Part shown: one piece after another, positions 7,817 through 38,017 of the stretch
How positions within the stretch are numbered: the first letter of the stretch is position 1
Layout: the number at the start of each line of letters is the position of its first letter
IMG/VR virus record: IMGVR_UViG_3300046703_000067
Location: 1 to 42,511 of that record
DNA: 42,511 nucleotides
Strand: one strand, 5' to 3'
DNA from: a virus
Notes under the pieces: generated by a model
Told to the model about the DNA's origin: nothing
The model's input: only the letters and a program-made list of their open reading frames with translations
Databases searched by the model: none
Translations under genes and position numbers: made by a program

Positions 7817-7902
7817 CGGGGTCCTCCTTCGGTACATCGGGTTCGGAGAGTGGCTCGGGGTAGGTTGCCCGCCATATCCCGGACGGGCTCGGGGAATGAG
7901 GG

Positions 7903-8088
7903 TTACTCCTTCGGGTAGTTGTCTTGGCCGCGGTGAATGTCCGCGACCATCCCGTGAGCCAGCGCCCATAGGTGCTTGATGTTGTCCTGGCTGGGGTCCT
8001 CGGCCTTGAGAACCCGGAAGGCGGCCACTACTTCAGCGGCGCGCTCGGATGCCTTTGCCGTTTGATCGGGGGCTTCCTTGGTGGTCAC
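7903..8088 (-). CDS. Small hypothetical protein
   Basis: This 61-residue product starts at a GTG preceded by AAAGGAG at a good distance, so translation is likely. It is charged and helical (ASERAAEVVAAFRVLKAEDPSQDNIKHLWALAHGMVADI). It overlaps the upstream gene by four bases (GTGA). No family was recognised. Confidence 0.65.
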   Translation of the reverse strand: MTTKEAPDQTAKASERAAEVVAAFRVLKAEDPSQDNIKHLWALAHGMVADIHRGQDNYPKE

Positions 8089-8432
8089 GATTTCTCCTTT
8101 ACTAAACTGTCCGGTGTGCCGGACTCATTGGGGTTACGCAGCAGGGCGAGAACGTCCTCACGCATGACGGCATCGACGCCGGGATAGGTGGCGGCGGACC
8201 GAACATACGGGTGGCCCACCGCGATTAGGCGGCGCAGCCTGTCTCGCTCTGCCTCAACCGCCTCAGCGGTTGCCTCCGCCTCGATGGCGCGGATTTCGCG
8301 GGTGACGCCGCACTCGCAGGCGGGCCAAACGAAACCGGACTTCGGTCCTTGGGCAAAAGGGCAAGCCGAAAAGTGGACGCTGAGGCGTCGGCTCATCGCA
8401 TCACCAGTCCTGGTTGTGGGTGTCTCAGACAT
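8085..8432 (-). CDS. Hypothetical protein with Cys/His cluster and coiled coil
   Basis: From the ATG at 8432, which follows a GAGGAG site, the product is 115 residues. It begins MSETPTTRTGDAMSRRLSVHF, then has FSACPF and WPACECG, a probable zinc site. A helix (REIRAIEAEATAEAVEAERDRLRRL) follows. A shorter start at 8396 (MSRRLSVHFSACPF) is possible. The upstream gene overlaps it by eight bases. No function is recognised. Confidence 0.65.
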   Translation of the reverse strand: MSETPTTRTGDAMSRRLSVHFSACPFAQGPKSGFVWPACECGVTREIRAIEAEATAEAVEAERDRLRRLIAVGHPYVRSAATYPGVDAVMREDVLALLRNPNESGTPDSLVKEKS

Positions 8433-8628
8433 TGGCTTGCTCCTCTTCGGGTTCGGACTGGCGCTGCTCGCAACCGAGTCGGTCCTTGCAGCGGTAGCCG
8501 GTGAAGTAGCGATAGCCCTCGCCCTGTGGCATCTCGATCGCGGATAGGCGCAGGTCGGTTTCAGCGCCACAGAACGCGCATTCGTAGGCCGGGAGTTCGG
8601 GCTCGGGGGAGTGGGCGATGCCGCTCAT
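8425..8628 (-). CDS. Small zinc-ribbon protein
   Basis: This 67-residue protein has CAFCGAE at residues 17-23 and a second pair C47/C53 (YRCKDRLGCEQ), a four-Cys zinc ribbon. A GGAG site lies five bases before the ATG. Many such tiny zinc proteins in this operon may bind nucleic acid or other proteins, but no specific role can be read from the sequence. Confidence 0.7.
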   Translation of the reverse strand: MSGIAHSPEPELPAYECAFCGAETDLRLSAIEMPQGEGYRYFTGYRCKDRLGCEQRQSEPEEEQANV

Positions 8629-9138: not shown

Positions 9139-9838
9139 GATCTGATTTTACCATTCCGTCCTCAATGTTGCCAAGGAGTAGAACCTCTTGGCGGCACCGG
9201 TTGGCGGCAATTTCCGCGTACCGTTCCTCGATCTCGATGCCGATGGCACGGCGACCGAGGGACTTCGCGGCGACGAGGGTCGAGCCGGAGCCCGCGAACG
9301 GATCGAACACGACGCCGAGCGGGCAGCGGTCCACGAGCGGAACCATCACGTCCAGCGGCTTGGCGTGCGGGTGGCCGATGTCTTGGATGCCGCCGCGGGA
9401 ATTGAGGGCAACGGCAGAGCGAAGCACGCCGGACCATGCCGCATTGCGGACGGGCCAGCGGCCAGTCAAGAACACCATCTCCCAATCGTTCCGGTAGCCC
9501 GTGGTGGAACCGACTATCCCGGTGTCGAGCGTCTTCTGAAAGACGAGGGCCTGATAGGTCCGGGCGGGTTTCTCTGAGCGCCACGTCCCGAATACCACCG
9601 CGGGCCGGTCGCCCCACCAATCGAGTACGCCATCGCGCATCGAAGTGTCGGTGTCGCCCACGATCCCGGGGTGCAGCCGCGACCCTCGCATCTTGCCCTT
9701 GCGGCCCTTGCCGTGGAGTCCCCAGCCGATCCCATACGGCGGGTCCGTCACGATCACGTCGGCCTCGATCGAGGCCAGCATCTCCCGACAGTCGCCGTGG
9801 TAGATCGTCACGAGGTCGTCGGAGTAGTACGGCTTCAT
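9083..9838 (-). CDS. DNA methyltransferase, N6/N4 group beta type
   Basis: The 251-residue protein has the catalytic motif TDPPYG at residues 31-36 and the AdoMet-binding motif FDPFAGSGST at about 178-187. This order (catalytic motif first) is group beta of amino methyltransferases (N6_N4_Mtase family). DPPY favours adenine N6 as the target, though N4-cytosine cannot be excluded. No restriction partner lies nearby, so it is probably an orphan enzyme that protects phage DNA from host restriction. Its first residues (MKPYYSD) and 23 bases around its start equal those of the second methyltransferase at 11071-12576. The start overlaps the upstream stop (ATGA). Confidence 0.9.
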   Translation of the reverse strand: MKPYYSDDLVTIYHGDCREMLASIEADVIVTDPPYGIGWGLHGKGRKGKMRGSRLHPGIVGDTDTSMRDGVLDWWGDRPAVVFGTWRSEKPARTYQALVFQKTLDTGIVGSTTGYRNDWEMVFLTGRWPVRNAAWSGVLRSAVALNSRGGIQDIGHPHAKPLDVMVPLVDRCPLGVVFDPFAGSGSTLVAAKSLGRRAIGIEIEERYAEIAANRCRQEVLLLGNIEDGMVKSDHAKMDYSQGTLLVEGDPS

Positions 9839-10473
9839 GCGTCACCCCGGACAGGTAGTGGGTCATTTGGGTGCGTGGCGTTCCATGCTGCCGTGCGCTC
9901 TTCGAGACTCGTCAAGACCTTGGCATCGATCGATGGGTTGCCCTCCCGCAGTTGTCTCGGCCCTTGGCCGTTCTTTCGTCGTGATCTATCACGAGCCCCC
10001 TTTGGGGGTAAGGGGGAATCCTTCGGACGGACGGACGGACGGACGGACGGTATCGCCCCGGTATCCGCGTGGTTACCGCGCGGTGGCAACGCTGTAGAGC
10101 CGCTGTTATTCACGCTCTCCGCGAGGCGCTTCTCATTGGCTCGACGCCATCGCTCACGGGTCGCCTTGCGTCTTTTCTGTGCCGGTGTGAACCATCCGAT
10201 CCAGGTTTTTGAGGGGATGAGGCCCTTTGAGTCGAGCAATTCAGCGGCCTCCATCGACGCGATTACGGCCGCGTCGAATGGGAGGATGACGGGCCAGGAG
10301 TCAACGATGGGGACGCGGCGTCCGGCCTTCCAGGACTCCCCCAGGATCGCAACGTAGGCCAGGAAGCCGGCCAGGACGTGCTCTGGGTTCTGCCGGTGCA
10401 GGCGTCGGAACTTCGGGTCGTTGACGATATCCGTGGACACGTCCATGACCGCGAAACCATCATCTCGGCTCAC
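9835..10473 (-). CDS. Candidate replication protein (winged-helix-like N-terminus)
   Basis: The GTG at 10473 overlaps the upstream stop (GTGA) and has GGAG eight bases before it. It gives 212 residues; an ATG at 10446 is an alternative. The N-terminal part (MDVSTDIVNDPKFRRLHRQNPEHVLAGFLAYVAILGESW, later LLDSKGLIPSKTWIGWFTPAQKRRKATRERWRRANEKR) resembles the winged-helix head of phage replication initiator or helicase-loader proteins. The middle is disordered and encoded by a tetranucleotide repeat (SVRPSVRPK). No helicase or polymerase is present in the genome, so host recruitment would be needed. The assignment is based on pattern, not on a diagnostic motif. Confidence 0.5.
   Translation of the reverse strand: MSRDDGFAVMDVSTDIVNDPKFRRLHRQNPEHVLAGFLAYVAILGESWKAGRRVPIVDSWPVILPFDAAVIASMEAAELLDSKGLIPSKTWIGWFTPAQKRRKATRERWRRANEKRLAESVNNSGSTALPPRGNHADTGAIPSVRPSVRPKDSPLPPKGARDRSRRKNGQGPRQLREGNPSIDAKVLTSLEERTAAWNATHPNDPLPVRGDA
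10024..10050. repeat. Tetranucleotide repeat tract inside a coding gene
   Basis: Six full CGGA units and a partial unit (27 bases) lie inside the candidate replication gene, where they encode the SVRPSVRP segment. Because the unit is four bases, loss or gain of one copy would shift the reading frame of everything downstream (about 62 codons). Such tracts mutate by slippage. Confidence 0.9.
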
Positions 10474-10790
10474 GAGACGGACTCCGAAGGCTGCCAAAGA
10501 CTAACTTGGCGCGCCTCGATGCGGCTCCAGATGAGCGGCCGATATGGGCTGTCCTCTGGGCCTTTGGCGAGTTCCGCCCACTTCTCGCCCCACGTCTTGC
10601 CGCCACAGCCGCACTGCCAATCGTCGCAGCAGACGTAGGCATCGGTCTTCATTCCGGGGTAGGCGTCTTCGTATCGGCCCTGAACGAACGCCAAGCAACG
10701 TTCAGCTTTGGCGCGACTGTTGCCGCAGTTCCTGGCTCGCGGCGCGGCCTGATCCTCTCGGAGCCAGGCCACTCGAAACATCGTTCTCAT
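10470..10790 (-). CDS. Cys-rich hypothetical protein
   Basis: The 106-residue protein has the cluster VCCDDWQCGCGGK near residues 53-65 and starts with basic, helical sequence (MRTMFRVAWLRED, SRAKAERCLAFVQGRYEDAY). The Cys cluster suggests zinc or disulfide. It overlaps both neighbours by four bases at ATGA/GTGA junctions, which supports the frame. No function is recognised. Confidence 0.65.
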   Translation of the reverse strand: MRTMFRVAWLREDQAAPRARNCGNSRAKAERCLAFVQGRYEDAYPGMKTDAYVCCDDWQCGCGGKTWGEKWAELAKGPEDSPYRPLIWSRIEARQVSLWQPSESVS

Positions 10791-11074
10791 CTGGAGCTAC
10801 TACCTCCGCTAGACGCGACGACGCCCGCACTTCGGGTAGTAGCCGAAACACGGGCGTCGTTCGCAATTCTAGCCGACTCGCTGCTACTACCAGCCAATGA
10901 ATCGTAGCTGGTACCGAGCGTCGGCGCAAGGGTAAACCGGCCTTTTGTTCGGGGTACGTGCCGCAAGTAAGCCACGACGAACTGGCGCTGCTCTACCCAA
11001 ACGATCCGTCGATGGCAGATGTCACACGTCTCGTTGTTGGGATTGATCGAGAGGCGTGGGCGATGGGGCTTCAT
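10787..11074 (-). CDS. Small zinc-knuckle protein with a hairpin-encoded tail
   Basis: From the ATG at 11074 the product is 95 residues. It has CDICHRR near residues 17-23 and then ordinary sequence to about residue 60. The tail (SESARIANDARVSATTRSAG and on to SGGSSSR) is low complexity and is encoded by the strong inverted repeat at 10818-10860. ATGA junctions on both sides suggest it is translated to the end. It is possible that the true protein once ended earlier and that the hairpin is the functional element here. Confidence 0.6.
   Translation of the reverse strand: MKPHRPRLSINPNNETCDICHRRIVWVEQRQFVVAYLRHVPRTKGRFTLAPTLGTSYDSLAGSSSESARIANDARVSATTRSAGVVASSGGSSSR
10818..10860. repeat. Two-step stem-loop inside a gene
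   Basis: ACGACGCCCG (10818-10827) pairs perfectly with 10851-10860. Inside, TTCGG (10831-10835) pairs with CCGAA (10843-10847) around loop GTAGTAG. The two stems are separated by a symmetric three-by-three internal loop. The structure works as RNA on either strand. Lacking a T tract, it may act as an RNA processing or protein-binding site rather than as a terminator. Confidence 0.7.
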
Positions 11075-12576
11075 GCCGTCCACAACCCCTCGGCTGGCAC
11101 GTCAGCCACCGGCTCATCCTCGCGGTCCCACCGCGCCGTCGCTCGTTGGAGCATCTGCCCGCAGTAGTCCGGTGAGAGGTCGATCAGAACCGACTTGCGA
11201 CCGAGCGTGCGGCTGACCTGGCCCACGGTTCCACTGCCTCCGAAGGGGTCCAGGACGGTGCAGGGGATGGGTTCGGCGTCGTGCTTGCAGGTAGGACGCC
11301 AGCCGGTCGTTTCCTTCGGGTGGGCGTTGAGCCACGCCTGGTAGCGCCCGCCCAGGTTGCGATGCGTGCCGGGGCCATCGGGCAGGGCGCCAGACTCAGC
11401 GATGGCGAGTGGCGCGAACTCCGGCCCCGTGCCATCTCGGTCGGCGATCCGCTCCCACGGAGCGCCGCACTCCGGGCAGCAGCCGCGCTCCGACGTACCG
11501 GCCAGGATCATCGGCTCAATCAGTTTCGGCGGGAACGTGGCGAAGTGGGCGTCGGGGTAGGGTGCGGTGGCTATGCGCCAGACCGATCTCTTGTTGCGGC
11601 CGACCACGGGCGTCGTGTCAGTGCGGTCGCTTCGATGTTGGGCGGCGGACTGCCCAGGCAGGACGTGGCCAGCCACCGCGCCATCTCGGGCGAACGTGTC
11701 GCGTCGCGTCCGGCCGTAGCGCCCACCCTCCGAGTGCTGGCCGCGCTCATTCCACGCAGTCCCGCCGATCACGTCATCACGAACTCGGCCAACCTGCGAC
11801 GGAGCCACGTCCTCCCGCACCGCCTCCGCGTCGTAGAAGTACCGCGCGCTCCGCGTCAGCAGGTACACCATCTCGTGAGCGGGCGTCGTGCGATCCGTGA
11901 CGGAGGACGGCATCGGGTTAGGCTTGGCCCACACGATCTCATCGCGTAAGAACCAGCCGTCAGCCTGCAACGCCAGAGCGACGCGGGCCGGGACCATCAT
12001 GCGGTCCTTGGGTTTGAGGCCGGGAGGCGGCCTGCGTAGATCGCCGGGAGCATCGCCGCGGCCGACCGCGCCATCCGTTGACCCGTAGGCCCGAGCGCCG
12101 CCTGCCGTGGCATACGAGTCTCCGAGGTTCAGCCAGACCGTGCCGTCCTTCCGCAGCACGCGCCGGACCGCCTGAAAGACCTCGGTCATGTGCGCGACGT
12201 ACAGCCCGACCGTGGGCTCCAGCCCCAGGACGCCGAGCCATGCGCCGCAGGGGCAGAAGCCGGTTGTGAAGGTTCCAAAGACCCGCTCGTCATCCGGGTC
12301 TGTCCCGGCGTTGTGGAAGCGGTTGTGCCCGTTGCCGCCCTCGAGGTGCTGCCAGCGGGCATTGTTGGTCTGTTCGGTCTTGCGGGCTGCCGTCGCCCAC
12401 TCGTGCTCGTGCGCCTCGCCGCCCCATACGCTCGGCTCGATGCCGTAGTCCCGGAGGCCGAAGTAGGGCGGGCTCGTCACGACACTCTGGACGGACTCGG
12501 GCTCCATCGCGGCCATGACGGCGCGGCAGTCACCCGCCATGACGGTCAACATTCGGTCGGAGTAGTACGGCTTCAT
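11071..12576 (-). CDS. DNA methyltransferase, N4-cytosine/N6-adenine type with zinc site
   Basis: The 501-residue protein has TSPPYFG at residues 34-40 and LDPFGGSGT at about 442-450, again group beta order. SPPY favours N4-cytosine methylation. Between them lie a long recognition region and Cys pairs (CPCG near 108-111, CCPEC near 366-370, and C430/H432), which probably hold zinc. A role in protecting phage DNA is likely. It begins with the same MKPYYSD as the methyltransferase at 9083-9838, so the two are distant paralogues or share an acquired start. The start overlaps the upstream stop (ATGA). Confidence 0.9.
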   Translation of the reverse strand: MKPYYSDRMLTVMAGDCRAVMAAMEPESVQSVVTSPPYFGLRDYGIEPSVWGGEAHEHEWATAARKTEQTNNARWQHLEGGNGHNRFHNAGTDPDDERVFGTFTTGFCPCGAWLGVLGLEPTVGLYVAHMTEVFQAVRRVLRKDGTVWLNLGDSYATAGGARAYGSTDGAVGRGDAPGDLRRPPPGLKPKDRMMVPARVALALQADGWFLRDEIVWAKPNPMPSSVTDRTTPAHEMVYLLTRSARYFYDAEAVREDVAPSQVGRVRDDVIGGTAWNERGQHSEGGRYGRTRRDTFARDGAVAGHVLPGQSAAQHRSDRTDTTPVVGRNKRSVWRIATAPYPDAHFATFPPKLIEPMILAGTSERGCCPECGAPWERIADRDGTGPEFAPLAIAESGALPDGPGTHRNLGGRYQAWLNAHPKETTGWRPTCKHDAEPIPCTVLDPFGGSGTVGQVSRTLGRKSVLIDLSPDYCGQMLQRATARWDREDEPVADVPAEGLWTA

Positions 12577-30344: not shown

Positions 30345-30512
30345 GTCGTGCACTCCTGTCGTGATGTGGAGGGGATGAAGGGGCGTGCAGATCTACCCAA
30401 GGGCTGCCTGCCTTCGGGTGTACAATGGTCGAGTCGGCTGTTGTGTAGCCGCTTCCTTATGCCCCTTCGTCGGACACAACCCGGCGAGGGGGCTACCTGT
30501 CTGGAGACGGTT
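30345..30512. promoter_or_regulatory. Divergent region between major tail protein and HNH gene
   Basis: This stretch holds the ribosome site of the leftward major tail gene. On the plus strand it has TACAAT at 30421-30426, a strong -10 match (five of six), about 87 bases before the HNH start. No good -35 was found at the usual distance. GGAG at 30503-30506 is the HNH ribosome site. The HNH gene therefore probably has its own promoter. Confidence 0.45.
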
Positions 30513-31028
30513 GTGAAAGATCCCGCGAAGGCGAGGGCCCGAGCTGCGACCTGGCGCGCCGCGCATCTTGACGAGGTTCGGACGGCCGAGCGAACTCGTG
30601 CCGCTGAACGTCGTCCCATGCATCGCGAGGAAGCGAGGGCCTACGCCCGAGTTTATCGGACGGCGCACCCCGAGAAGGTGAAGGCTGACAATCGAGCCTA
30701 CGCCGACACGCACCGCGAGGAGGCAAAGGCGTACCAGGTGGCCTATCGAGCCGCGCACCGCGACGTAGCCCGTGAGTATTACCGGAAGGCCAAGGCCAAG
30801 CGTCGCGGTGCGCGTTTCTGCGACCATCCGGCTTGTCTGGCCATCGGCGCTGACCGGCTCGCATGGCAATCCAATCCGCACACCTGCTACCTGTGTGGAG
30901 CGACCGTCGACTCCATCGCGTGGATGGATCACGTCGTGCCGATCTCCAAGGGAGGCATTCACTGCGCCGACAATCTCCGGCCAGCGTGCGGGCCGTGCAA
31001 CGTGCGAAAGGGCGCCAAAGTCGCCTAA
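30513..31028 (+). CDS. HNH endonuclease inserted against the late operon
   Basis: The GTG at 30513 follows GGAG by six bases, giving 171 residues. The N-terminal about 105 residues are repeated basic helices with recurring YRxAHR-like units (RVYRTAHPEK, AYADTHREEA, VAYRAAHRDV), which look like DNA-binding repeats. The HNH core is at the end: CYLCGATVDSIAWMDHVVPI with the Asp-His pair, SKGGIHCADNLRPACGPCNV with the Asn, and KGAK. Being on the opposite strand between two structural genes, it is a probable mobile homing insertion. It converges on the gene at 31039-31323 with ten bases between stops. Confidence 0.88.
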   Translation: MKDPAKARARAATWRAAHLDEVRTAERTRAAERRPMHREEARAYARVYRTAHPEKVKADNRAYADTHREEAKAYQVAYRAAHRDVAREYYRKAKAKRRGARFCDHPACLAIGADRLAWQSNPHTCYLCGATVDSIAWMDHVVPISKGGIHCADNLRPACGPCNVRKGAKVA

Positions 31029-31789: not shown

Positions 31790-31827
31790 TTGCAATGCTC
31801 GCGCCGTGGTGATACGGTACGCGTACC
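31790..31827 (+). promoter_or_regulatory. Promoter and palindromic operator for the rightward HTH unit
   Basis: TTGCAA at 31790-31795 and TACGGT at 31813-31818 are 17 bases apart, a plausible sigma70-like pair. Overlapping the -10 box and the likely start point, GGTACGCGTACC at 31816-31827 is a perfect 12-bp palindrome. A dimeric repressor bound here would block transcription. The HTH protein encoded downstream is the natural candidate. An AAGGAG ribosome site and ATG follow at 31848. Confidence 0.5.
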
Positions 31828-31847
31828 AACCCACGAAGGAGAGCACC

Positions 31848-32108
31848 ATGCTTGAAGTAGTCCGGCAGCACCTCCCGACCCTCGAAGACATGATCAGCGA
31901 GCCGATCGGGATTGACGCGGCCCGCGACATAGTCCAGACCGCTCAGGACATCATCGACCGAATGGACGGCCGGAGAATGACCGAGAGCGAGCGTCGCGCC
32001 ACCCTGGCCGATGCTTTCGACCTCGCGTACTACATCGTCGGAAACCGCTCGCTCCCGGATGCCGGCGCTATCGAGTACCGGGCGCGCGTGATCGCGGGCG
32101 TGGCATAG
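31848..32108 (+). CDS. Small hypothetical protein of the rightward HTH unit
   Basis: The ATG at 31848 follows an AAGGAGAG site, giving 86 residues, mostly helices (MLEVVRQHLPTLEDMISEPI, AARDIVQTAQDIIDRMDG, TLADAFDLAYYIVGN). It ends at TAG directly followed by the start of the HTH gene, so the two form an operon. No family was recognised. As a partner of a small DNA-binding protein it could be an effector or a co-regulator. Confidence 0.7.
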   Translation: MLEVVRQHLPTLEDMISEPIGIDAARDIVQTAQDIIDRMDGRRMTESERRATLADAFDLAYYIVGNRSLPDAGAIEYRARVIAGVA

Positions 32109-32303
32109 ATGGTCGACCTCGTTGGCCTCACCGAACTCGCGCAGCGAGCCGGAACCAGCCCCGGATACATTCGCGTCCTGCGTCGGCGTCACGCCGATTT
32201 CCCGGCTCCGATTGTCGAGCTGGCGATGGGGCCGGTGTGGGATTACGCCACCGTCGAGGCGTGGCTCACGCAGAGGCGACCGAACGGCAGACCGCGCGGC
32301 TAG
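32109..32303 (+). CDS. MerR/AlpA-like helix-turn-helix protein
   Basis: The 64-residue protein is a single small DNA-binding domain: LTELAQRAGTSPGYIRVLRR is the helix-turn-helix, DFPAPIVELAMGPVWDY is the wing, and ATVEAWLTQRRPN is the last helix. This is the excisionase/AlpA/MerR-type fold used by phage regulators. With the palindrome before its operon it may regulate itself. Without an integrase in the genome an excisionase role is unlikely. Confidence 0.8.
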   Translation: MVDLVGLTELAQRAGTSPGYIRVLRRRHADFPAPIVELAMGPVWDYATVEAWLTQRRPNGRPRG

Positions 32304-33419: not shown

Positions 33420-33447
33420 TTGACTCCCGGCCGGGAAGCGGTAGGAT
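33420..33447 (+). promoter_or_regulatory. Promoter of the rightward accessory gene pair
   Basis: TTGACT at 33420-33425 (five of six) and TAGGAT at 33442-33447 (four of six) are 16 bases apart. Transcription would start about 33455 and run through a structured leader into the gene at 33570. The same stretch includes the ribosome site of the leftward connector gene, so the two transcripts are divergent but overlap. Confidence 0.5.
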
Positions 33448-33454
33448 GTAAGCA

Positions 33455-33569
33455 GGCAGTTTGGTTGCCGGTTTTTCATGCCCCGCTGGCAGACCAAACC
33501 TGCTGGCGGGGCTTTCCCGTTTCTAGGCCAGGCATACGGGGCACCAATAGCGCGGAGGTTTGGTCTCCA
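33455..33569 (+). ncRNA. Structured leader RNA with mutually exclusive pairings
   Basis: Three elements can pair in different ways. A (33459-33469, GTTTGGTTGCC) can pair with B (33488-33499, GGCAGACCAAAC) with one bulge. B lies in the loop side of a strong hairpin: GCCCCGC (33479-33485) pairs with GCGGGGC (33506-33512), with inner GCAG/CTGC, and TTTCCCGTTT follows, like an intrinsic terminator. C (33556-33566, AGGTTTGGTCT) is an exact complement of 33491-33501 and contains the ribosome site. C also forms its own small hairpin, GGAG-GTTTGGT-CTCC, whose loop is the exact complement of the B loop ACCAAAC. Attenuation or kissing-loop control of the next gene is plausible. Confidence 0.6.
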
Positions 33570-34214
33570 ATGGCTCCTAGATCCGCTCCTACCGGCATCG
33601 TGGGCATCTCGCCCGCGAACTTCCAGGTAGCTCAGTTCACCCTGCGAGGCGAGACGCCCTACATGCAGGCCCGGTTCACCGCGAAGGCGATGCAGGCGAT
33701 GCGATCCAAGCAAGCCGCCGGCTCGGTCGCCAAGAAGGGCGTCAAGCGCGAGGCCCGCGACTTCGACCGCGACTTCGTAGAAGCGCTGCACCGCTCGGAG
33801 GCCGGTTGGGTCGGCGTCCCGGCCAGTTGCATCCGCAATGCGTGCATCGACGCCTGCCGCATGGTCGGGTTCGAGATGACCCGCGCCAAGATGAGCGTTT
33901 TCGTCCTGAATGATGGCCTCGATGCCATCGACGGAACCCCTCTCGTCAAGCTCGACGCTCCCGAACCGGAGCGGAGCGAGATGATCGTCCGCAATGCCAC
34001 GGGCGTGGCCGACATTCGTGTCCGGCCGCTGTGGCGTCAGTGGGGCCTCACCGTCAAGATCCGCTTTGACGCGGACCAGTTCACCCTCACAGACGTGGCT
34101 AACCTGCTCGAACGGGCTGGCCAGCAGGTCGGAATCGGCGAGGGTCGGCCGTTCTCCAAGCGGAGCAACGGAATGGACTTCGGCCGCTTCACGATCACAG
34201 CGAAGGAAGGCTGA
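33570..34214 (+). CDS. Conserved phage protein of unknown function, RAMP/Cas7-like pattern
   Basis: The ATG at 33570 lies after the structured leader and gives 214 residues. I recognise the family as a recurring phage hypothetical but know no function. The layout FQVAQFTLRGETPYMQARFT near the N-terminus, GWVGVPASCIRNACIDACRM in the middle, and VGIGEGRPFSKRSNGMDFGR near the end recalls RAMP/Cas7 RNA-binding folds: a first strand ending in TP, the IPGSSLRGAxR-like helix, and a glycine-rich loop with a G-x-GR turn before the last strand. This is a pattern match by eye, not a proven homology. The gene is on the opposite strand to the late operon and pairs with 34218-34739. Confidence 0.7.
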   Translation: MAPRSAPTGIVGISPANFQVAQFTLRGETPYMQARFTAKAMQAMRSKQAAGSVAKKGVKREARDFDRDFVEALHRSEAGWVGVPASCIRNACIDACRMVGFEMTRAKMSVFVLNDGLDAIDGTPLVKLDAPEPERSEMIVRNATGVADIRVRPLWRQWGLTVKIRFDADQFTLTDVANLLERAGQQVGIGEGRPFSKRSNGMDFGRFTITAKEG

Positions 34215-34217
34215 GCA

Positions 34218-34739
34218 ATGGCCAAGACCAAGGCCGTGTTCAAGTACCGGAAGGGCGCCCGCGTTGCGGGCGTCCCTGCCCCGGTCGCCGGAGCCGAATT
34301 GCTCCGTATCCAACGCGAGGCCGGCGCTCTCCGGCCCGAAGATGTGGTCGCGTCGGCCGAGCCCGAAGACGCCCCGTTGCATCCCGCTTTCGAGTGGGAC
34401 GATACCGCGGCAGGCGTCGAGCATCGGCTCTGGCAGGCGCGGCAACTGATCCGCGCTCTCGTCATTGACGACGGCAGGAACCAGTCTCAGGTCTACGTCC
34501 ACGTGCCCATGATCTCGGGCGGCGACTACCAGCCGCTGGCGGTCGTGGTCGCCAACCCTGACCGCTACGCCCTGGCTCTCGCCGAGCTGGAGCGGAAGAT
34601 CGAAGGCATCCAGCGGACCATTGACGAGTTGCGCCAGCTCGCCTCTCAGAGCAACGACGCGGACGCGCTCGCTCGCATCTCGGTCGCCATTGCGGCGTTC
34701 CGGGCTGCGGGTGAAGCCGTCCACGCTCTCGCGCACTGA
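34218..34739 (+). CDS. Conserved phage protein, partner of the RAMP-like gene
   Basis: The 173-residue protein starts three bases after the previous stop. It begins basic (MAKTKAVFKYRKGARVAGVP). The signature HPAFEWDDTAAGVEHRLWQARQLIRALVI lies at about 55-83, a block I recall from many phage hypotheticals that occur with the upstream gene. A beta segment (SQVYVHVPMISGGDYQPLAV) and a coiled coil (ELERKIEGIQRTIDELRQLA) follow. Function is unknown. The steady pairing of the two genes suggests that they act together. Confidence 0.75.
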   Translation: MAKTKAVFKYRKGARVAGVPAPVAGAELLRIQREAGALRPEDVVASAEPEDAPLHPAFEWDDTAAGVEHRLWQARQLIRALVIDDGRNQSQVYVHVPMISGGDYQPLAVVVANPDRYALALAELERKIEGIQRTIDELRQLASQSNDADALARISVAIAAFRAAGEAVHALAH

Positions 34740-34972
34740 CCGTTCGGACAAGGCACGGCAGGCTGGGCGCGCCATGGCTGGGCGCGGCCGGGACCGGACT
34801 GGCGGGGTCAGGCACGGCAGGCGTGGCACGACGTGGCCCGGCGGGGCGAGGCGAGGGCCGGCAGGCGAGGATGGGCCTGACAGGGTGCGACTGGGCAAGG
34901 CGGGGCACGGCTGGGCAGGCGTGGCACGACGTGGCCCGGCACGGCGCGGCGGGGCACGGCGCGGCGCGACCA
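34740..34972 (+). repeat. G-rich, strand-biased repeat region after the gene pair
   Basis: This non-coding stretch is made of short G-rich units. GGCACGG occurs five times (34752, 34811, 34904, 34938, 34953) with many TGGGC and GGCAGG variants between. A perfect 27-bp direct repeat lies at 34816-34842 and 34914-34940. T is scarce and the plus strand carries most of the G. As RNA it would be very G-rich and could form G-quadruplex-like structure or bind proteins. Similar stretches follow this gene pair in other phages as far as I recall, but that must be checked. Confidence 0.7.
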
Positions 34973-34984
34973 TCATGGTCGCGC
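34964..34984. terminator. Perfect hairpin at the convergent gene junction
   Basis: GCGCGACCA (34964-34972) pairs perfectly with TGGTCGCGC (34976-34984) around the three-base loop TCA. The loop is the stop codon of the leftward connector gene (34973-34975). The hairpin sits between convergent transcripts and is symmetric, so it could end or stabilise both. It lacks a T tract. Confidence 0.55.
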
Positions 34985-35551
34985 CTCCGCCGTCGAGCGC
35001 AGACTCAGGCTATATGCCTGCCGCCTGAGCAAGATGCTGCGGACTACGCCCGCGCGGCTGATACGGCCAGCAGATGCGCCCCTTGAATACTGATAATCGC
35101 CGATCGTCTCGCTGTCGAAACCCGTCTCGGTGGTCGTCAGTCGGACCAGGTCGATAACGCCCTTCGTGACAGCCGCCCCGTCGCTCGGCGTCCAGCAGAC
35201 CGTGACAGCGCCCTGCCAGGACGGGTACCACGTCTCCGGCGGCGGGTAGGGCCAGGGGTAGACGCCGACCACGCGCCGCAGACAGCCGGTCGACGGCGTG
35301 AAGATCAGATCGGCCGCCGCGACAGCCACTCCGTTATCCGTGACGCTGACGGAGTCCGTGAGGCGCGAGAGGTAGAGCGGCGTGTTCGTGACGCCCGGTT
35401 GGAACGTGTCGGTCCGCTCGCCGGTGAGAACGCCGACCTTGGTGGCCAGCCAGTCCTCTTCGCGGTCGATTACGTCCTGAAGATCGGCGTCGCTGAGGCG
35501 CGAGCGCACGAGCGCCTTGACCTCAGCGATCGTCACGAACGAAGTGGTCAC
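34973..35551 (-). CDS. Head-tail connector/adaptor protein (gp6-like)
   Basis: The 192-residue protein has the family start VTIAEVKALVRSRLSDADLQ with DVIDREEDWLATKVGVL, a helical bundle typical of the HK97 gp6/SPP1 gp15-type adaptors. A beta insert follows (TPLYLSRLTDSVSVTDNGVA, WQGAVTVCWTPSDGAAVTKG) and then a last helical part with IGDYQYSRG. It binds below the portal. The start overlaps the upstream stop (ATGA). Confidence 0.8.
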   Translation of the reverse strand: MTTSFVTIAEVKALVRSRLSDADLQDVIDREEDWLATKVGVLTGERTDTFQPGVTNTPLYLSRLTDSVSVTDNGVAVAAADLIFTPSTGCLRRVVGVYPWPYPPPETWYPSWQGAVTVCWTPSDGAAVTKGVIDLVRLTTTETGFDSETIGDYQYSRGASAGRISRAGVVRSILLRRQAYSLSLRSTAEARP

Positions 35552-36754: not shown

Positions 36755-38017
36755 TTAGGCGGCGATCTTCACGTTGCGGAGCACTCCGCACGACTTGCTC
36801 GCCTTGAGCGCGACCGCGACGGGGCCCATCTCGACCTCGCCCTTCTTCACGGCGCCGGCCGTGGTGAAGTCGGGCAGCCAGGTCTGGATGAGCTGGCCGG
36901 GAACCGCGACGCCGTGGAAGGCATCGAGCCCGAAGCGCACGGCGTAGATGTCCGTGAGCCCGCCGGTGCCCGTGCCGCCCTTGGTCGTCTGCACGACGGT
37001 GACCGCGTGCGCGGTCCCGACGAGATCGACGTCCGTCGCGACGAGCATCGGGACGTTGACCCCGGCGTAGTCCTGGGCGAACGTCACGACGTAACTCACG
37101 CCGGGCGTGCCGGTGATCGTCACATCGCCCGAACGCACATTCGACAGGTTGTTGAGCGCCGTGACCATGTTTGCCGTGGAGACGTCGTGCTCCATGGCGG
37201 CGGTGATCTGACCATTGAAGGTCAGCGTGAACGTGCCGCTGTCGGCCGAGACGGTGATCGTCTGGACTTCGCTCGTGGTCCCGTAGGTCGGGATGATGAG
37301 GTCGGAGGAGCCGGCCTTCTCGCCCACGTCGATGAGCGGAATGTCGCGGTAGGTCTCCTGCGGCCGACCGAAGGCATCCTGAGCCGAGCGGAGCTGGCCG
37401 CTGAACGCAGCCGCGAGGCTGAACCAGGACTTGGCCATGCCGTTCATGAGCAGCGCGTCCGGCGTGCCGTCCATGAGGTACAGCCAGGCGTTGATGCGCT
37501 GGATCACCGCGAGAGCGGTGGCCTGCGTGGTGATGCCGGTGAAGTCGAGCACCGGACCCGCGATCTCGGTCGAGGAGTCGGTGAGCGCCACGTTCAGGCC
37601 GTCGAAGCCGTTGGTGGTGACGCCGACGTCGCCGTTGATGACCTGATCGGCGAAGTACGCCTTCGTCGCCTTGACCAGCTGGGCGAGCTGGAAGCTCACC
37701 TCGGACACGGCGCCGATGCCGGTCAGGACGCGGTCGATCTCGAACTGGCCGCCGAGCGGCCGGAGGTTGACCGTGTACTGCGCCTTCTCGACCTGAGTCG
37801 GGGTGTATTCGCTGTTGATGGTGCGGAAGGCCGCGGCGCGCTGCGTGGTCTGGCGGGTGTACCCGTAGACCAGAGTCGAGCCGCCGCCGGCCGGGTTGAC
37901 CGACTGCTCGAACGGCAGACGGTCCATGAGGAAGCTCGACTTGCGGAACTCGTCGATGATGTTCCGGTCGATGTCGCTGGCGGCGTTCAGAGACGCCTGG
38001 GCGAGAGTGACAGCCAT
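36755..38017 (-). CDS. Major capsid protein, HK97-like, with inserted surface domain
   Basis: The 420-residue protein starts after AAAGGA at a workable distance. Residues 1-248 and 350-420 look like an HK97-fold capsid (LAQASLNAASDIDRNIIDEF, then FEIDRVLTGIG, VINGDVG, and a late AVRFGLDAFHGVAVPGQLIQ). Residues about 249-347 are a separate beta-sandwich (SEVQTITVSADSGTFTLTFN to VTVVQTTKGGTG), a domain common in bacterial surface proteins and here inserted into the capsid. It would project from the shell and could bind cells or glycans. The scaffold gene just upstream supports the call. Confidence 0.9.
   Translation of the reverse strand: MAVTLAQASLNAASDIDRNIIDEFRKSSFLMDRLPFEQSVNPAGGGSTLVYGYTRQTTQRAAAFRTINSEYTPTQVEKAQYTVNLRPLGGQFEIDRVLTGIGAVSEVSFQLAQLVKATKAYFADQVINGDVGVTTNGFDGLNVALTDSSTEIAGPVLDFTGITTQATALAVIQRINAWLYLMDGTPDALLMNGMAKSWFSLAAAFSGQLRSAQDAFGRPQETYRDIPLIDVGEKAGSSDLIIPTYGTTSEVQTITVSADSGTFTLTFNGQITAAMEHDVSTANMVTALNNLSNVRSGDVTITGTPGVSYVVTFAQDYAGVNVPMLVATDVDLVGTAHAVTVVQTTKGGTGTGGLTDIYAVRFGLDAFHGVAVPGQLIQTWLPDFTTAGAVKKGEVEMGPVAVALKASKSCGVLRNVKIAA

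Follow-up and report, generated by a model that had tools for sequence, protein, structure and literature searches.

The locus raises the question of how a leader RNA that carries one seven-base sequence twice, with its complement in between, might control the two genes that follow it in a viral DNA of 42,511 nucleotides (the whole stretch analysed, referred to below as the window). In the preliminary description, this leader was seen as an arrangement of three mutually exclusive pairing elements, A, B and C, placed before a two-gene unit in the manner of an attenuator or a riboswitch-like control. The leader (33455-33568) and its promoter-like region consist of the following parts:

33420-33447, plus strand: promoter-like pair TTGACT-16-TAGGAT, from the promoter scan
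33455-33469, plus strand: hairpin A, GGCA[GTTTGGT]TGCC
33480-33512, plus strand: hairpin B, 13 bp, with the loop ACCAAAC (33493-33499)
33554-33568, plus strand: hairpin C, GGAG[GTTTGGT]CTCC, carrying the Shine-Dalgarno sequence GGAGGT

The three 7-mers were confirmed at these positions, each making up the whole of a seven-base loop. They are the only copies in the 42.5-kb window with both strands counted, against 2.45 expected anywhere in it, and all three fell within 106 bases. The exact complementarity of B and C over 11 bases (33491-33501 with 33556-33566) also held, and the promoter-like pair proved to be the sole one in the region (1 found, 0.0 expected). An RNA start about 7 nt 3' of this pair would make hairpin A the 5' end of the RNA. 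Element A had been placed correctly, but its being a hairpin in its own right had been missed. Hairpin C is followed by a single A and then by the ATG of gene 1 at position 33570.

The folding energy of the leader was unremarkable by itself (z = -1.55). Hairpin B is strong (-27 to -35 kcal/mol), and hairpin C, taken by itself, is weak (about -5 kcal/mol). The structure prediction suggested earlier as a check did not recover hairpin C: in the minimum free energy fold of the whole leader, its stretch pairs with 33525-33533, which also hides the start.

The arrangement was far from what chance produces. Four hairpin pairs with complementary seven-base loops were found in the window versus a mean of 0.07 in 60 dinucleotide shuffles, which never held two, and a rescan of 60 shuffled windows gave zero pairs or trios. 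No trio was detected in 3.29 Mb of control loci, and none of the 64 other viral stretches that share the three 7-mers at a similar spacing had hairpins around all of them. The kissing-hairpin scan exposed a second trio in the window, at 10894-10793 on the minus strand, and a third leader was found on the plus strand:

10901-10929, minus strand: promoter-like pair TTGCGC-17-TACGAT of the second leader, from the sequence and below the scan cut-off
10880-10894, minus strand: hairpin A of the second leader, GCTG[GTAGTAG]CAGC
10818-10860, minus strand: hairpin B of the second leader, 18 pairs, with the loop CTACTAC (10842-10836)
10793-10807, minus strand: hairpin C of the second leader, GGAG[GTAGTAG]CTCC
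30421-30426, plus strand: -10-like box TACAAT of the third leader, from the sequence; the whole promoter was uncalled by the scan
30436-30450, plus strand: hairpin A of the third leader, GGCT[GTTGTGT]AGCC
30461-30493, plus strand: hairpin B of the third leader, 13 bp, with the loop ACACAAC (30474-30480)
30503-30515, plus strand: GGAG and the GTG start of an HNH gene, third leader

Hairpin C of the second leader is followed by AG and then by the ATG (10790) of a gene for a 106-aa protein. Its scaffold is the same as that of the first leader, the loops of the two being unrelated although both lie in one genome. An open frame of 98 aa (10787-11083, minus strand), possibly a gene, runs straight across this leader. 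The third leader comprises only the A:B pair, without a C hairpin, and lies upstream of a plus-strand gene resembling those of HNH endonucleases. The sequence GGTTGTG over its GTG start complements the B loop, a match which is not kept in relatives.

The HNH-like genes (30513-31028 in the window; 7823-8546 and 9259-10111 in the related contig L335) have their HNH part preceded by numerous repeats of the AYRAAH type. They are antisense insertions in structural genes, at differing sites in related phages, and each sits behind an A-B kissing leader. Another plus-strand pair at 31806-32303, encoding a 100-aa protein and a 64-aa excisionase-like wHTH protein, also lies between structural genes in antisense orientation and has no kissing leader.

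The recurrence of the design, which the preliminary description had missed, extends to related phages, where four further distinct leaders were found among the matches listed. One (G002, contigs L088 and L182; GTACCAG/CTGGTAC/GTACCAG) is followed by a frame of 48 aa and a gene for a DnaB-like helicase, and another (G012, contig L184; GTCCTAG/CTAGGAC/GTCCTAG) by a gene whose small product is predicted to be a membrane peptide. The A-B leaders of G001-G003, with the loops GTTGTGT and GGCTTGG, lie ahead of HNH-like genes. All three HNH-gene leaders keep A:B and lack the C hairpin. The sample thus comprises seven distinct A-B cores, drawn from three or four lineages of phages, with the HNH leaders kin by descent. 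Since the collections were scanned with fixed patterns, counts of leaders apply to the matches listed.

Two spacing types could be distinguished. Loops A and B are 34 nt apart in the first window leader and the HNH leaders, in which the B stem starts with ATGCCCC, and 46-48 nt apart in the remaining leaders, in which it starts with CGACGCCC. The first window leader combines the 13-bp, 34-nt A/B type with the C scaffold otherwise found with the 46-48-nt type. A -10-like box was seen by eye 8-13 nt ahead of loop A in all seven leaders. In the 34-nt-spaced leaders, a pyrimidine-rich linker (GGTTTTTCAT, GCTTCCTTAT) follows hairpin A (30435-30458 and 33455-33478) and was called terminator-like by a simple scan.

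The comparison of homologous leaders, which had been named as a check, spoke for the proposed pairing, in that the other leaders retained it despite completely different loops. In the alignment of the seven A-B cores, all 105 of 105 cells were standard pairs and 11 of the 15 pairs had changed on both sides. The covariation score was 0.94 versus 0.26 in shuffles (reached by none of 500) and dropped to 0.21 or less once the partners were slid by one column; the cores were cut by hand in register, which biases the alignment towards structure, a bias that the slid, shuffled and empty-scan controls answer only in part. The stems changed as well, with a compensatory difference, GGCT/AGCC versus GGCA/TGCC, between orthologous leaders. 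For B-C, 60 of 60 cells were paired in the four leaders that have C, with seven covarying pairs. The B loop pairs with A in all seven leaders and with C in all four. Loop-loop pairing in the leaders is therefore well supported by the compared sequences, and the proposed mutual exclusivity of A:B and B:C, with a kissing loop as one of its forms, agrees with a pairing kept while the loops changed wholly.

The same data bear on the possibility that the repeats act as DNA, as repressor sites overlapping the promoter and the ribosome site. Operators are typically inverted repeats of 7-11 bp, and A sits at the expected transcription start, which would suit such sites. The loops, however, differ among the leaders of one phage, each being exactly flanked by a stem, and the stems covary as RNA helices. 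The covariation of the loops makes repressor sites unlikely, and, taken with the rest, this explanation is considered extremely improbable.

A classical transcription attenuator with B as the terminator, as first proposed, fares little better. Hairpin B is strong and is followed by TTTCCCGTTT, which would fit a terminator, but this holds for the first leader alone; the other leaders have no notable T-run. The terminator scan called none at B in the three leaders of the window, and on this ground the attenuator is rejected as very improbable. Moreover, the complementarity in the HNH leaders ends at the loop edges, so that A would be unable to strand-displace the B stem. The idea of a riboswitch-like ligand pocket also found no support, as little is conserved outside the stems and the scaffold in the seven leaders and Rfam gave no match.

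Control at the ribosome site, also part of the preliminary description, is supported by the C scaffold beside the ATG in four leaders. The scaffold GGAG-N7-CTCC lies 1-2 bases ahead of the start codon in each of them, its GGAG/CTCC stem being invariant over the four B-C cores, while N7 differs each time and is retuned to match the leader's own B. Such a fixed scaffold with a loop that tracks B is the strongest sign, at the level of sequence, that C belongs to the device. This bears on an alternative in which A:B is the main device, a kissing structure at the 5' terminus that would stabilise the transcript or insulate it, either to ward off 5' decay or to the benefit of RNA polymerase, with C as an add-on in some leaders. 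The presence of A:B in all seven leaders, each time at the presumed 5' end and even where the C hairpin is lacking, speaks for it, and in the three HNH leaders, which have no C, A:B must act alone. It would, however, leave unexplained why loop A equals loop C in all four C-bearing leaders, whose loops are unrelated, and it is regarded as unlikely.

Rough geometry was used to evaluate which contacts could form within one RNA. A:B in cis appeared sterically possible in all leaders, at the cost of no more than a single opened base pair. B:C in cis was free in the first window leader, whereas in the three longer-spaced leaders about 2-4 base pairs at the base of B must open. Owing to this strain, C might pair in trans in those three. 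A general action in trans, either through mRNA dimers or through a short RNA made of A and B that targets hairpin C in the full-length mRNA, with private codes averting cross-talk, could accommodate the strained geometry, and the three leaders of the window cross-pair over no more than four contiguous bases. Seven-base, fully complementary loops are known from antisense RNA pairs, which the leaders resemble. Neutral divergence of the loops would be expected under a constraint in cis as well, and no terminator that would yield a short RNA was found after B in the window leaders scanned. Action in trans is considered quite unlikely.

Translational control by competing kissing loops, with the first leader belonging to a family of such leaders, is the preferred reading, with moderate confidence, from the compared sequences. 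In this mechanism, A would serve as a decoy that repeats the loop at the ribosome site, with B as the partner common to both. Transcription would begin just ahead of hairpin A; A and B, being synthesised first, would kiss, and hairpin C would stay weak and let ribosomes load. A new transcript should thus begin in the A:B state, accessible to ribosomes. Should A become unavailable, through 5' processing, a bound factor or melting in a read-through transcript, B would kiss C, the GGAG stem would be locked and translation would be off. The direction (A:B on, B:C off) and the triggers named are presumed. One partner loop lies inside the ribosome-site hairpin in four leaders and not in the three HNH leaders.

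Searches beyond the related phages gave few further candidates. The whole window had no match in Rfam at the gathering score, and DNA similarity searches with the leader against phages and plasmids returned nothing useful. A 14-base C pattern recovered G002 and L184 among the matches listed. A 16-base C pattern gave 11 matches in viral contigs, none with an upstream complement. The combined B and C pattern gave eight matches in viral contigs, among them the two known cases and the contig L323, and no true case among at least 118 matches listed in genomes. In 796 genomes from two phyla, those to which an actinobacterial MAG and a Chloroflexota MAG belong, the pattern of leader type I matched twice versus six times for the reversed control, and these matches were put down to chance. 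No such leader was found upstream of homologs of gene 1 or of the 106-aa protein gene (L001-L004, L087), and no trio in phiC31, SV1, GMA1 or Darolandstone.

In L323, paired hairpins are present without a clear ribosome site. This contig (G013) has two hairpin pairs on the plus strand, at about 1500-1580 and 370-440, with complementary seven-base loops and GGAG/CTCC stems. The larger hairpins are followed by TTTG or TTTC, and one pair lies just ahead of a primase-like frame; such pairs also occur in L360. The hairpin pairs of L323 and L360 may represent a remote variant of this kissing device.

The identity of the gene pair, which had gone unrecognised in the preliminary description, was addressed next to that of the DNA downstream of it:

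33570-34214, plus strand: gene 1, a Vipr-like RAMP protein of 214 aa, phrog_4652
34218-34739, plus strand: gene 2, a candidate vipr-accessory (vap) gene, 173 aa, phrog_15946
34745-34969, plus strand: GGY/NN array, likely vrRNA, 80% GC
34960-34990, plus strand: hairpin at the array's 3' end, perhaps the tail of the vrRNA (-30.9 kcal/mol for 34955-34995)

The family of gene 1 (phrog_4652) is listed as of unknown function. A profile search of PDB sequences with gene 1 pointed to the SUSP1 Vipr protein (36pp_D, E = 5e-4), and its AlphaFold model of moderate quality (pLDDT 69.7) resembled the Cas7/Csm3 subunits of type III CRISPR systems, with 42 PDB matches at E ≤ 0.001 and a TM score of about 0.45. 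Homologs of gene 2 adjoin homologs of gene 1 in the window, L001 and L002. With both strands counted, the window has four runs of at least four GGYNN units, all inside the array; they comprise 4, 4, 5 and 7 units and are interrupted by odd spacings. Elsewhere the runs reach 10 (L001) and 12 (L002), and VIPR guide RNAs have 9-16 YNNGG repeats each. GGYNN arrays lie beside gene 1 homologs in quite different phages (L001:4672-4895 and L002:5607-5870). In Mycobacterium phage Donkeykong, array-like DNA (36975-37201) lies just upstream of the gene 1 homolog; the mycobacteriophage homolog is only 32% identical.

The site is empty in L069-L071, whose head gene is closely related to the one flanking the unit, so the region from 33418 to about 34972 can be viewed as a cargo unit antisense to the structural genes. 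On the sequence and the model, the most fitting reading of the downstream unit is a VIPR system, with an ancestral Cas7-like/RAMP protein, a partner and an array, inserted antisense between head genes. In VIPR systems, which are phage-encoded and RNA-guided, an ancestral RAMP protein is accompanied by an accessory gene and by guide RNAs of the GGY/NN kind (PMC13142463, a 2026 preprint). The window unit shares with them the RAMP protein, the partner gene and the GGY/NN array (PMC13142463). It differs in its kissing leader, as the main text of the preprint mentions no leader, hairpin or kissing element (PMC13142463).

Individual features of the leaders have parallels in known systems. The seven-base, fully complementary loops on short stems are shared with RNAI-RNAII of ColE1, but there the loops belong to two RNAs from opposite strands, whereas all loops of a leader lie on one strand of one leader. 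In OxyS-fhlA, kissing beside the Shine-Dalgarno sequence blocks translation, similarly to the kissing at the ribosome site proposed here; OxyS is, however, a trans-acting sRNA without a decoy copy of the target loop, which the leader has in A. In the L5-L13 interaction of the cobalamin riboswitch, a hairpin close to the translation start forms a kissing contact in cis with a loop upstream of it, and in mycobacterial metE L13 overlaps the regulatory sequence of the initiation region (PMC11260477). Kissing in cis near the translation start is thus common to both, but the window leader has no B12 aptamer or Rfam match, its 5' decoy A repeats the ribosome-site loop and the loops of the leaders vary freely provided that all partners match. 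The combination of decoy, partner and ribosome site was absent from Rfam and from the literature searched, which is weak evidence as few subscription journals were covered. What appears new is a 5' decoy matching the ribosome-site loop, together with one common partner, repeated within one genome with private codes, and this pattern in the sequences points to an undescribed RNA control device.

If this is true, a ribosome site governed by a hairpin loop that chooses between two identical partners would be a compact, re-programmable switch without a recognisable ligand pocket. The leaders already represent a natural set of six loop codes in one architecture. Tentatively, each transcript may have its own private seven-base code, used three times (decoy, partner and ribosome site), so that one genome would run several independent kissing switches in parallel, including one that governs an RNA-guided inter-phage weapon of a lineage proposed to precede CRISPR. 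The finding would bear on why phage cargo genes antisense to structural genes have elaborate leaders, and the leader would be a first handle on how the host phage may keep its VIPR system on or off.
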